From positions 1 to 35,347 of the forward strand of contig PEXU01000038.1 of NCBI GenBank assembly GCA_002774635.1: a stretch of DNA of 35,347 nt. The letters are read 5' to 3'. Of the stretch, positions 5,941-30,390 are shown piece after piece. The notes beneath the pieces were generated by a model, which was given only the letters and a program-made list of their open reading frames with translations, did no database searches and was not told where the DNA came from. Made by a program: the position numbers and the translations under genes. The stretch's first letter is position 1; the number at the start of each line of letters is the position of its first letter. This DNA is from Candidatus Kerfeldbacteria bacterium CG08_land_8_20_14_0_20_40_16. Its GTDB lineage: Bacteria; Patescibacteriota; Patescibacteriia; UM-FILTER-42-10.

Positions 5941-5966
5941 TAGGCGAGAATACGTATTCTCGCCTA
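5941..5966. repeat. Perfect 26-bp palindrome
   Basis: TAGGCGAGAATAC (5941-5953) is followed immediately by its exact reverse complement (5954-5966) with no loop. There is no T-tract. The outer part AGGCGA/TCGCCT recurs in two other intergenic hairpins of the window (12422 and 24179). TACGCTTA overlaps its right edge (5965-5972), and the same octamer follows the hairpin at 3429. Confidence 0.8.
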
Positions 5967-5984
5967 CGCTTAATATAGAGATTC

Positions 5985-5993
5985 TGCTATAAT
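5985..5993 (+). promoter_or_regulatory. Extended -10 promoter element
   Basis: TGCTATAAT is a perfect extended -10 box (TG at 5985-5986, TATAAT at 5988-5993). No good -35 is present, as is usual for extended -10 promoters. Transcription would start near 6000, about 20 bases before the protease GTG. The untranslated stretch includes an 18-base AT palindrome at 6002-6019. Confidence 0.6.
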
Positions 5994-6019
5994 AAAAATA
6001 TAATTTTTAATTAAAAATT

Positions 6020-7240
6020 GTGCCAAAAAGAATCTATCTTTATTCAACCATCTTGGCCGTCAGTTTCTTGACGCTATTTTTATATTTTGATTCCTCGGTA
6101 CGGCCAGTTGCCGCTTCACTTAATCCGATTCAGGGCGAATATCGGGCAAAAACGCTTTTGGTAAAGTTTCGTCCAGAAATAAAAAAATCAGTCAATATCG
6201 AAGGAACTAAAATAAATCTTCCTTCAGTAGAATTCCTGAATAATAAATATCAATTGAATAAAATTGACCCTCTTTTTCCAGATGCCCGACATGCCAATAG
6301 CGCGCTGGGCACCACTTACCGAATGACCTTTGATTCTTCGGAACAGCTGGAAAAAATGCTAGCTGATTTTAAAAACAATCCAGTAGTATTAACTGCTGAA
6401 CCGGATTATCGGGCAAAGGCGGAGTGGTCTCCCAATGATGAGTATTACTCTGAACAATGGAATTTCGACACAATTAATATGGAAATTGCTTGGGATTACG
6501 ATACCACCACTCCCAAACATGGAGGCGATCCGAATGTAGTAGTGGCGGTAATTGACACTGGTGTAGCTTATGAAAACTATGGCTCTTATGATCAAGCTTC
6601 TGATTTGGCCGATACAAACTTTGTGGCTGGTTATGACTACGTGAATTTAGATTCCCATGCCAACGATGATAATGGTCATGGTACACATGTGGCCGGCACT
6701 ATCGCCCAAAGTACCAATAACGGACTGGGAGTAGCGGGCATTGCTTATAATTCCACTATCATGCCAATTAAAGTATTAGATGAAAATGGTTCGGGCTGGG
6801 TTTCGGATATTATTTTAGGAATTGAATACGCCATTGATAATGATGCTGATGTAATTAATATGAGTATTGCCGCGTCGGCTCAAGTGGCGGCTTTAGACCA
6901 AGCTTGTGAAGATGCCAGAGCAGCTGGCCTTATTCTGGTGGCGGCTACTGGCAATGATGGTGAAGACTCTGTCTCTTATCCAGCAAAACACAGCGATGTT
7001 ATCGCGGTCGGAGCAACAAATTCTAGCAATTCCATCACATCCTATTCCAATACGGGAACGGGGATCGATTTAGTGGCTCCCGGTGGAGAAGGAATCAATC
7101 TAATTGTTCAGCAAACATGCGATAATCCTCCTGCTTGCAACTCCTTTGACTATTACGGTTTTGAAGGAACTTCGATGGCCACTCCGCATGTTGCCGGAGC
7201 AGTGGCACTACTACTAGCCTTATGGTGTTTCGCCGGATAA
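6020..7240 (+). CDS. S8 peptidase, N-terminal part: signal, prodomain, catalytic domain
   Basis: This 406-aa part starts at GTG 6020. A hydrophobic signal sequence spans about residues 7-33 (ending VRPVAA). A propeptide of fervidolysin-like type follows (TLLVKFRPEI to VLTAEPDYRAKAEW, about 42-137). The catalytic triad is complete: D179 in VAVIDTG, H220 in NGHGTHVAG and S385 in GTSMATPHVAG; an AATGND stretch fits the oxyanion asparagine. The protein would act outside the membrane. The last five residues (WCFAG) are out of frame with the family; the true sequence continues in the +1 frame. All triad residues lie before the break, but the terminal helix and beta strand of the fold are lost. Confidence 0.85.
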   Translation: MPKRIYLYSTILAVSFLTLFLYFDSSVRPVAASLNPIQGEYRAKTLLVKFRPEIKKSVNIEGTKINLPSVEFLNNKYQLNKIDPLFPDARHANSALGTTYRMTFDSSEQLEKMLADFKNNPVVLTAEPDYRAKAEWSPNDEYYSEQWNFDTINMEIAWDYDTTTPKHGGDPNVVVAVIDTGVAYENYGSYDQASDLADTNFVAGYDYVNLDSHANDDNGHGTHVAGTIAQSTNNGLGVAGIAYNSTIMPIKVLDENGSGWVSDIILGIEYAIDNDADVINMSIAASAQVAALDQACEDARAAGLILVAATGNDGEDSVSYPAKHSDVIAVGATNSSNSITSYSNTGTGIDLVAPGGEGINLIVQQTCDNPPACNSFDYYGFEGTSMATPHVAGAVALLLALWCFAG

Positions 7241-27468: not shown

Positions 27469-27510
27469 TAAAAAAAAAGAACCCCCATTCCGGAAAATCC
27501 GAAATGGGGG
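27469..27510 (-). terminator. Strong intrinsic terminator of the cold-shock-tailed gene
   Basis: On the minus strand CCCCCATTTCGGA and TCCGGAATGGGGG form a 13-bp stem (one G-U) with a 3-base loop (27510-27482), followed directly by TTC and a run of about nine T. It is the clearest terminator in the window and ends the gene at 27533-28315. Confidence 0.9.
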
Positions 27511-27532: not shown

Positions 27533-28315
27533 CTATGAGGTGAGCCGAACACCGTGTACTTCCCAACCGAATTTGGTCGGGCGATTCTTTCCGGTGTGAG
27601 TTAATTTCTGAAGGTGAGTGAATTTTATTCGCTCACCTGACTTCAGGAACTGAAGGTGATATCCGTTGCCCCGGTTGATTTCCGACCAGTGGACGCGGAC
27701 GATCCCTTCTCCAGTTACAATGGCGCCGATCCCTTGGGCGATGTTGAACCAAAGCACTAACCCCTCATTTGACGACAGGTTCTCCAGCACTTGAGCGGGA
27801 GCTCTCCTGTATTGTGCGATTAGTGGTAGGTTGTCTGGCTTCAGGCGACCTTGAAGAAAAGTCAACAGTTGCGGCCACTTCACTGCAGGCATTGTCACAT
27901 TGCCTCCGTCACGATAGCAGGTGGCTCCTATGGTTTTCTGGGTGGTGAGAAAGAATTTCCCGTGTTGGGAAATGACGGCGATCTCCCAGATTTGGAACTG
28001 ACCATTGGGCTCCAGTTTCAGCAACCGAAGGTTGTTTTGAGGGTAAGGAGTAAAGAACTCCCCGTCCTCGCTTTTCCTTACCGGAATGGTCAGCTTGTAA
28101 GTCAGATTGCCACCGCTTTTTTTCACTTCTTTCGGGATGATATTCTTCTTACCATCCACAGTGACTACCAGGAAGTTGCCGGCTTCCGGACCGATGGTGA
28201 CTTTCAACCGGAGCGGTAAATGGTCGTCGAGTTTGCCCAAGCAACCGTCCTCACTGATCTTTAGTGAATCTTCACCCCACATCACTTGCGTTGAAATACC
28301 GTTAATTCCTACCAT
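27533..28315 (-). CDS. Unrecognised protein with cold-shock-like C-terminal domain
   Basis: The start is the ATG at 28315 (MVGINGI) because GAAAGGAGGA lies just upstream; the frame is open to 28357. The 260-aa product has no signal peptide. Its first ~185 residues are mostly beta-like (LPLRLKVTIGPEAGNFLVVTVDG, then LTYKLTIPVRKSEDGEFF) and unfamiliar. The last ~65 match the cold-shock domain pattern: VLWFNIAQGIGAIVTGEG, VRVHWSEI, LKSGERIKFTH and a final VHGVRL. That suggests nucleic-acid binding, but the aromatic RNP residues are only partly kept. The gene is alone, with a near-perfect promoter, the best ribosome site in the window and a strong terminator. Its GC content is visibly higher than its neighbours, so transfer or high expression is possible. 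Confidence 0.75.
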   Translation of the reverse strand: MVGINGISTQVMWGEDSLKISEDGCLGKLDDHLPLRLKVTIGPEAGNFLVVTVDGKKNIIPKEVKKSGGNLTYKLTIPVRKSEDGEFFTPYPQNNLRLLKLEPNGQFQIWEIAVISQHGKFFLTTQKTIGATCYRDGGNVTMPAVKWPQLLTFLQGRLKPDNLPLIAQYRRAPAQVLENLSSNEGLVLWFNIAQGIGAIVTGEGIVRVHWSEINRGNGYHLQFLKSGERIKFTHLQKLTHTGKNRPTKFGWEVHGVRLTS

Positions 28316-28446
28316 GGCGTTCCTCCTTTCTAAGAGGTTAAAATTGGTAGGTCTCACTTCGAAAGATTGTCTAAGAGCGTACTTATTTTAATTCACAATT
28401 TTGCATTGCAGGCTAAAATAAAAACATCTTTAAAAGAGAACCATTC

Positions 28447-28475
28447 AGTATAGACCCTTATTTAGTTTTTGTCAA
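28447..28475 (-). promoter_or_regulatory. Strong promoter for the cold-shock-tailed gene
   Basis: On the minus strand TTGACA (28475-28470) and TATACT (28452-28447) are exactly 17 bases apart, a near-consensus sigma70-type promoter. The start near 28440 gives a leader of about 125 bases, long enough for the kind of structured leader found on cold-shock mRNAs. Confidence 0.85.
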
Positions 28476-28522: not shown

Positions 28523-28628
28523 ATCCCGTTAGAAATTTATAAGACGTGGGGTTCTAATAAAATAATAAATTCAGTAAGGATAAAGTAGTTTAAAATATAA
28601 ATATTATTCGTTAAATCTCTAACGGGAT
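28523..28628. repeat. 17-bp inverted repeat reaching the uvrC start codon
   Basis: The arms 28523-28539 (ATCCCGTTAGAAATTTA) and 28612-28628 are complementary at 16 of 17 positions, with 72 bases between. The right arm ends on the AT of the uvrC ATG (28627-28629). The stretch between is AT-rich. It could be a small palindromic element, or a fold that hides the start codon. Confidence 0.7.
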
Positions 28629-30390
28629 GAATAAGCAAAAACTAAACAATATCCCCAATAAACCGGGCGTTTATCTTTTTAAAGACAAAAACGGTGCCAT
28701 TCTTTATATTGGCAAGGCCCGGAATCTCAAAAGCCGGGTTGGCTCTTATTTTAGGAAGTCGGCCAATTTAGAGCCGGCTAAGGAAATAATGGTGGGTAAA
28801 ATAGCGGACCTGGAATATATTCTGGTCGATTCCGAAGTGGAAGCCCTGCTTTTAGAAAGCAGCCTGATTAAAAAACACAGACCCCCTTATAATGTTGAGT
28901 TAAAGGACGACAAATATTTTCTGTACCTAAAAGTCACCTTAGAAGAAGGTTTTCCGAGAGTTCTGACGGTTCGCCGCGTGGCTAAAGACAAAAACCGTTA
29001 CTTCGGCCCTTTCACTTCGGCTGCAGCGGTAAAAAATACCCTGCGCTTAGTCCGAAGAATTTTTCCTTACAAAATCTGTAAGAATCCTCCGGAAAAGCCC
29101 TGTCTGGGTTATCATATTGAACGCTGTCTGGGCCACGTTACTAAAGATTTTACTAAGCGGGATTATCAGAAAATCATCGAGGGGGTAATCAAGTTTTTGG
29201 AAGGGAAGAATAGATTCTTGCTTTCTGATTTAAAAAAACAAATGAAAGAAGCGGCCCGCCAAAAAAAATATGAAAAGGCGGCCAGAATCAGAGATCAAAT
29301 TCGGGGCATCGAACATTTAATGGAAAGACAGAAGGTGATTTCCATCAAATTGGAAAATCAAGATATTGTCAGCCTGGGTCGCGATAATAATCTGGCGGCA
29401 ATCAACCTTTTTCAAATTAGAGAAGGAAAACTGCTGAATCGAGAACAGTTTTTACTCCAAAACGTAAACTTACGAACCGACTCAGAGTTAATCGATTCTT
29501 TTTTAAACCAATACTACGCCTTGGCCTCTGATTACCCCAAAGAAATAGTTGTGCCGGCTGAAATCAAAAATCGGAGTATTGAAAAGTTAACCAAGGCCAA
29601 ACTTACTTTTCCGTGCAAAGGGAGAAAACGGCAATTAGTAAAAATGGGTAAAGAGAACGCCGAGGAATATTTGCGCCAAACTCAGCTGGAATCGGAATTA
29701 CGCGATCAATCCGGGCAAAAATCCTTGGCGGAATTGGCCAAAGAATTAAAACTTACTAAGAGTTCCCGCCGGATTGAGGCCTATGATATCTCTAATATTC
29801 AGGGAACAAACGCGGTCGGTTCCATGGTTGTATTTACGGCCGGACGGCCCGACAAATCGCAATACCGCAAGTTTAGAATCAAAACGGTCAAAGGCGCCAA
29901 TGACCCGGCAATGATGGCGGAAGTAATCAGACGCCGTTTTCAAAGAATAAAAGCTGAAGAAAAAGAACGTTGGCCATTGCCTGATTTAATAGTGCTGGAT
30001 GGTGGAAAAGGGCAGTTGAGTTCGGCTAGGAAAATACTAAAGAAGTTTGGTATTGATCAGCCGGTAATTGCGCTGGCGAAACGGAAAGAAGAGATTGTTC
30101 GGCCCAATCAAAAAAATCCTATAGTACTGTCCAATAATTCGCAAAGCCTCCAGCTGCTCAAGCAAATAAGAGATGAAGCGCACCGCTTTGCCATTGGGTA
30201 CTATCGCAAAAGACATCAGGCAGAAACAAAAAGATCAGCCCTTGACGAAATACCGGGAATCGGGCCTAAAACAAAAAAGAAGCTGCTGTTCGCTTTTGGA
30301 TCAGTACAAAAAATTAAGGAAGCAAGTTGGAAAGATTTAGAAAAAGTGATTGGAAGTAAGCTGGCAAGAAAGATTAAGGAATATCTTTAA
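28627..30390 (+). CDS. uvrC: UvrABC system protein C
   Basis: The 587-aa protein has the N-terminal GIY-YIG nuclease (NKPGVYLFKDKNGAILYIGKA, residues about 10-90) for the 3' incision, a cysteine-bearing stretch (CKNPPEKPCLGYHIERCLGHV, about 145-170), a UVR helix (about 200-235) that contacts UvrB, the RNase H-like domain (RIEAYDISNIQG, LIVLDGGKGQLSSA) for the 5' incision, and C-terminal helix-hairpin-helices (LDEIPGIGPKTKKKLL). Length and order are normal. The start is fixed by the family N-terminus and the overlap of the inverted-repeat arm. Confidence 0.97.
   Translation: MNKQKLNNIPNKPGVYLFKDKNGAILYIGKARNLKSRVGSYFRKSANLEPAKEIMVGKIADLEYILVDSEVEALLLESSLIKKHRPPYNVELKDDKYFLYLKVTLEEGFPRVLTVRRVAKDKNRYFGPFTSAAAVKNTLRLVRRIFPYKICKNPPEKPCLGYHIERCLGHVTKDFTKRDYQKIIEGVIKFLEGKNRFLLSDLKKQMKEAARQKKYEKAARIRDQIRGIEHLMERQKVISIKLENQDIVSLGRDNNLAAINLFQIREGKLLNREQFLLQNVNLRTDSELIDSFLNQYYALASDYPKEIVVPAEIKNRSIEKLTKAKLTFPCKGRKRQLVKMGKENAEEYLRQTQLESELRDQSGQKSLAELAKELKLTKSSRRIEAYDISNIQGTNAVGSMVVFTAGRPDKSQYRKFRIKTVKGANDPAMMAEVIRRRFQRIKAEEKERWPLPDLIVLDGGKGQLSSARKILKKFGIDQPVIALAKRKEEIVRPNQKNPIVLSNNSQSLQLLKQIRDEAHRFAIGYYRKRHQAETKRSALDEIPGIGPKTKKKLLFAFGSVQKIKEASWKDLEKVIGSKLARKIKEYL

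Follow-up and report, generated by a model that had tools for sequence, protein, structure and literature searches.

The csd gene of Candidatus Kerfeldbacteria bacterium CG08_land_8_20_14_0_20_40_16 belongs to an undescribed, scattered, accessory protein family that is specific to Patescibacteria as far as sampled. The gene lies in contig PEXU01000038.1 of assembly GCA_002774635.1, of which positions 1 to 35,347 were analyzed (35,347 nucleotides, hereafter the window). Its product joins an N-terminal domain, predicted with confidence to be a novel all-beta fold without a known relative, to a C-terminal domain that is a real cold-shock/OB domain with an altered nucleic-acid face. The most likely role, to which we give a probability of about one half, is that of a single-stranded nucleic-acid-binding adaptor which is made in quantity and is not a minimal general chaperone.

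Transcription unit of the csd gene

The initial annotation had described an isolated, apparently highly expressed gene, and its account of the flanking signals proved accurate (Table 1). The promoter matches the consensus at 11 of 12 positions and outscores all other promoter-like sites of the region. It is followed by a leader of about 125 nt, the ribosome binding site GAAAGGAGGA directly before the ATG, and, beyond the stop codon, a terminator with 13 base pairs, 8 of them GC, and the T-run TTCTTTTTTT. The gene is indeed isolated, with uvrC starting divergently 311 nt upstream and the downstream gene, on the same strand, lying past the terminator. Judging from the promoter and the Shine-Dalgarno sequence, the csd gene is probably highly expressed. 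In a study of groundwater ultra-small microbes, csp genes ranked in the top 20 of the named genes by expression, which the authors attributed to sample preservation (PMC9938205).

Table 1. Features of the csd locus (positions in the window)
Feature	Position	Strand	Remarks
csd coding sequence, 260 aa	27533..28315	-	ATG at 28315, stop at 27533; N-domain (residues 1 to ~165), linker, C-terminal cold-shock domain (residues ~183-258)
N-terminal domain, residues 1-178 as modelled	27782..28315	-	predicted all-beta, pLDDT 94.4
Cold-shock domain, residues ~183-258	27542..27769	-	RNP1-like QGIGAI, RNP2-like VRVHW
Sigma-70-type promoter TTGACA-17-TATACT	28447..28475	-	11/12; same in sister species G001
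Leader, ~125 nt	28316..28440	-	has 18-bp hairpin
Ribosome binding site	28320..28330	-	directly before ATG
Intrinsic terminator	27482..27510	-	13-bp stem, T-run
DHH-like protein, 342 aa	26405..27433	-	downstream neighbour; DHH motif degenerate here
uvrC	28627..30390	+	divergent neighbour

The strong autonomous transcription unit holds across the family, in which an own near-consensus promoter is nearly always present. Within 180 nt upstream of the gene, a promoter matching at least 10 of 12 positions was found for 14 of the 18 members, compared with 23 of 128 flanking genes (18%) and 7% of shuffles, and one matching at least 11 of 12 positions for 9 of the 18, compared with 4.7%. The flanking genes in this comparison include operon-internal ones, and part of the gap arises because every family gene either opens its transcription unit or makes up the whole of it.

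Between the window and G001, the genome of a sister species, identity is 84% over promoter and leader, versus 59% for the coding DNA. The 18-bp leader hairpin has two mismatches in the window copy; over the two sequences, 94% of the cells are paired, with five one-sided consistent changes. The folding z-scores are -5.6 in G001 and -1.4 in the window, and two sequences are too few for proof of a conserved structure. A known RNA element in the leader was rejected, as the leader matched no Rfam family. Between the csd promoter and uvrC, and touching the uvrC start, lies an inverted repeat, CCCGTTAGARATTT (28525-28626; 5959-6122 in locus L036), with two copies in the window and three in G001; the other examined stretches of the window's genome contain no copy.

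A cold-shock domain with an altered nucleic-acid face

The single csd protein matches the Pfam CSD family at residues 184-236 with E=2.8e-4 and 21.1 bits, which is under the 27-bit gathering cut-off. A family profile built from 14 members matched PDB cold-shock proteins far better, at E=8.9e-9, and the AF2 model of the csd protein could be aligned by Foldseek with CspE (3i2z) at a TMt of 0.82, an rmsd of 2.0 and an E of 2.5e-4, with all five strands of the OB fold in the model. The initial annotation had called the C-terminus cold-shock-like, and had proposed that a structure prediction without an OB/CSD fold there should overturn that claim; both the profile match and the CspE-like fold uphold it.

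We then counted residue conservation over the 17 members that have the cold-shock domain. In the WFN strand, position 189 is Trp in 15 of the 17 and position 190 is aromatic in all of them. G197 is kept in 17 of 17. H209 is kept in 10 members, and the position of W210 is aromatic in 15. The RNP motifs, by comparison, are changed. RNP1, KGFGFI in classical proteins, reads QGIGAI in the window, so that its aromatics are missing from the csd protein; across the family the first position is aromatic in 5 of the 17 members and the second in none. RNP2, VFVHF, reads VRVHW, the Phe being mostly replaced by Arg or Lys: position 207 is Arg in 12 members and Lys in 2. Positions 198 and 207, the equivalents of F17 and F27 of CspB, are never aromatic (0/17). 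F17 of RNP1 and F27 of RNP2 are two of the base-stacking aromatics of ordinary cold-shock proteins.

With CspA, CspB and CspE (PF00313), the C-terminal ~75 residues have in common the OB/CSD fold, the WFN strand, the His of RNP2 and the GE.v.F strand. Unlike these proteins, the family has its cold-shock domain behind a novel domain of ~180 residues, is without the F17/F27 equivalents, has gained an Arg and, in the case of the single protein, scores below the Pfam gathering level. With 260 residues and an N-domain, the csd protein also lies outside the stand-alone length of 65-75 aa of the CspA type. An ordinary Csp of 65 aa is encoded on contig C12 of the same genome. Lin28 and the Y-box proteins resemble the csd protein in having a cold-shock domain joined to other sequence, with weak structural and profile matches over that domain, but neither sequence nor fold searches relate the N-domain to any of these proteins. 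A weak match to the phage cold shock protein phrog_729 (a profile of 277 positions) is also confined to the cold-shock domain and leaves the N-domain unmatched.

The N-terminal domain

Residues 1-178, modelled with an alignment of 18 sequences, are predicted to fold as an all-beta domain that also has a short helix. In line with the initial annotation, which recognized no family in this part of the protein, these residues matched nothing in Pfam, NCBIfam or PHROGs, and Foldseek searches with the model gave nothing significant: the best PDB hit had an E of 0.078 and a probability of 0.28, and the best BFVD hit an E of 0.038. The conserved motifs of the domain are EDGxLG and ISQxGxFFLxxQ.

Family and distribution

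The family is scattered and has 18 members in the genomes sampled. Profile searching identified 14 true members in the 381 genomes of the class sample (~4%) and four further ones, from other classes (G402, G428, G530 and G701), in a phylum sample of 380 genomes; matches in G034, G142, G313, G545, G586 and G678 were left out as ordinary Csps, false matches or matches to the cold-shock domain only. The close relatives are those of G001 (50% identity), G018 and G038. Within taxonomic families the gene is sporadic, with 3 carriers among 41 genomes in f22 and 2 full members among 21 in f6, and the tree of the protein family has long branches without a resolved branching order. The member in G068 (L044, C13:58541-59104) consists of the N-domain only, followed by stop codons, and has little GC3 excess; this copy is perhaps decaying.

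Collections of phages, plasmids and viral contigs contained no relatives of csd, and a phage or plasmid origin was rejected on these grounds. Outside Patescibacteria the search used narrow peptide patterns with light coverage. In the literature we found no paper on a family that combines this N-domain with a cold-shock domain.

Composition of the gene

As stated in the initial annotation, the gene differs in composition from its neighbours. Its GC content is 0.50 against 0.41 in the flanks, its GC3 is 0.58, and its fraction of C-ending codons, 0.70, ranks first among 231 sampled genes of its genome (mean 0.30, sd 0.09). GC3 exceeds that of every flanking gene in 14 of the 18 family loci. In G038 (L038), the gene downstream of csd has a GC3 of 0.86 and lies in a 14-kb stretch of a contig of ~41% GC; the csd member of this genome shows no GC3 excess itself.

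The comparison of sister genomes bears on the age of this signature. Between the window's genome (G000) and G001, four-fold sites of the csd gene are 0.47 identical, within the range of 0.40-0.58 for the neighbours, and because its four-fold divergence equals theirs the gene has been resident as long as they have. Two-fold-site GC is nevertheless 0.65 and 0.61 in the window and G001 copies versus about 0.22-0.38 in the neighbours, and a second sister pair, G336 and G260, shows the same pattern (0.82 in both versus about 0.3). Since both copies retain a GC excess despite neighbour-like synonymous divergence, this excess is maintained and is no relic of a recent transfer. At the protein level the two csd copies of G000 and G001 are 50% identical, and the neighbouring proteins have diverged more slowly, at about 76-93% identity. 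The alternative offered in the initial annotation, a transferred gene, therefore does not stand in the sense of a recent event: the locus is syntenic in G001 with the same leader, and the GC3 excess outlasts synonymous divergence in two sister pairs.

In the same genome, the genes for ribosomal proteins, EF-Tu and EF-G have C-ending fractions of 0.05-0.33, without the csd-type bias, indicating that the GC3/C-ending bias is no simple marker of abundance; codon bias was accordingly rejected as plain proof of it. A gene on the opposite strand was also rejected as the cause of the GC3, as the antisense ORFs vary in length and frame.

Neighbouring genes

No Pfam family matches the 342-aa protein encoded downstream, which shares 32% identity across 289 residues with the product of the gene directly downstream of the G402 member, where the DHH motif is kept. 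The csd and DHH-like genes are adjacent in the window, in G001 and in G402, which belongs to another class. Relatives of the DHH-like gene occur in 38 of the 381 class genomes, including 3 of the 14 with csd, and this lack of enrichment led us to reject it as an obligate partner. In genus g178, five species have the DHH-like gene just upstream of relA, and G249, which is without it, has the csd gene there. At 13 of 15 other DHH-like loci (L100-L115), the upstream gene on the same strand has raised GC3 and C-ending codons; these genes belong to unrelated families, orphan or paralogous, and include further DHH-like proteins. The beta-rich orphans among the genes beside DHH-like genes were rejected as homologues of the N-domain at an hhalign probability of 0.6%. 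On the other side, uvrC is divergent beside csd in the window, G001, G076 and G428, a shared adjacency that fits an old linkage with frequent loss.

Discussion

We propose that csd encodes a two-domain cytoplasmic protein that would be strongly transcribed from its private promoter. The ligand of the cold-shock domain would still be single-stranded nucleic acid, most probably RNA, bound by a modified face in which the Trp and Phe of the WFN strand and the His and one aromatic of RNP2 are kept, the stacking aromatics of RNP1 and RNP2 (198 and 207) are gone and a conserved Arg (207) is gained. The N-domain may add a contact to a protein or a ligand, and the ordinary 65-aa Csp of the same genome would fill the general role.

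Two other readings of the cold-shock domain have to be weighed against this. A plain abundant RNA chaperone or cold-shock protein with an extra domain, close to the abundant RNA-binding protein suggested in the initial annotation, would account for the fold, the strong promoter and a structured leader reminiscent of csp leaders; we nonetheless consider it unlikely, given that the equivalents of F17 and F27 are missing from every one of the 17 domain-bearing members, that the genome already has an ordinary Csp and that only ~4% of the class genomes carry the gene. Loss of the two stacking aromatics could, conversely, abolish RNA binding, and the domain would then have turned into a protein-interaction or structural module, with the function residing in the N-domain. 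The altered nucleic-acid face and the strong conservation of ISQxGxFFLxxQ outside the cold-shock domain are compatible with such a module, which is a doubtful reading in view of the retained W189, F190, H209 and W210 and the basic residue gained at 207.

The neighbourhood and the composition raise two further possibilities. The DHH-like gene may have several alternative partners, the csd protein being one, with the partner binding an RNA or nucleotide that the DHH-like protein processes; the adjacency in the window, G001 and G402, the exchange of the slot upstream of relA in g178 and the raised GC3 of the upstream genes at 13 of 15 other loci speak for it. As the two genes co-occur without enrichment (3/14 versus 38/381), are separated by a terminator in the window and are not near each other at most csd loci, we regard this partnership as quite improbable. 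A recently transferred GC-rich gene without a settled role, finally, would explain a GC and GC3 far above the flanks and the patchy distribution, but is highly unlikely: the sister species shares the locus, promoter and leader, the GC excess has lasted through neighbour-like synonymous divergence in two independent sister pairs, and it recurs in most family members. The nucleic-acid-binding adaptor remains our preferred interpretation.

The family thus brings together an all-beta domain for which we found no solved relative and a cold-shock domain in which other, consistently conserved residues stand in place of the classical RNA-binding ones. Its maintained codon signature is absent from the ribosomal genes of the same genome. 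One tentative idea, less probable than not by a good distance, is that csd belongs to a class of strongly promoted, fast-evolving orphan genes of Patescibacteria, from unrelated families, with selectively kept GC-rich, C-ending codons in an AT-rich background; ribosomal genes would not share these codons, and several of the orphan genes stand beside a DHH-like gene. If this is true, such orphan genes together would encode a set of abundant accessory proteins of a new kind.
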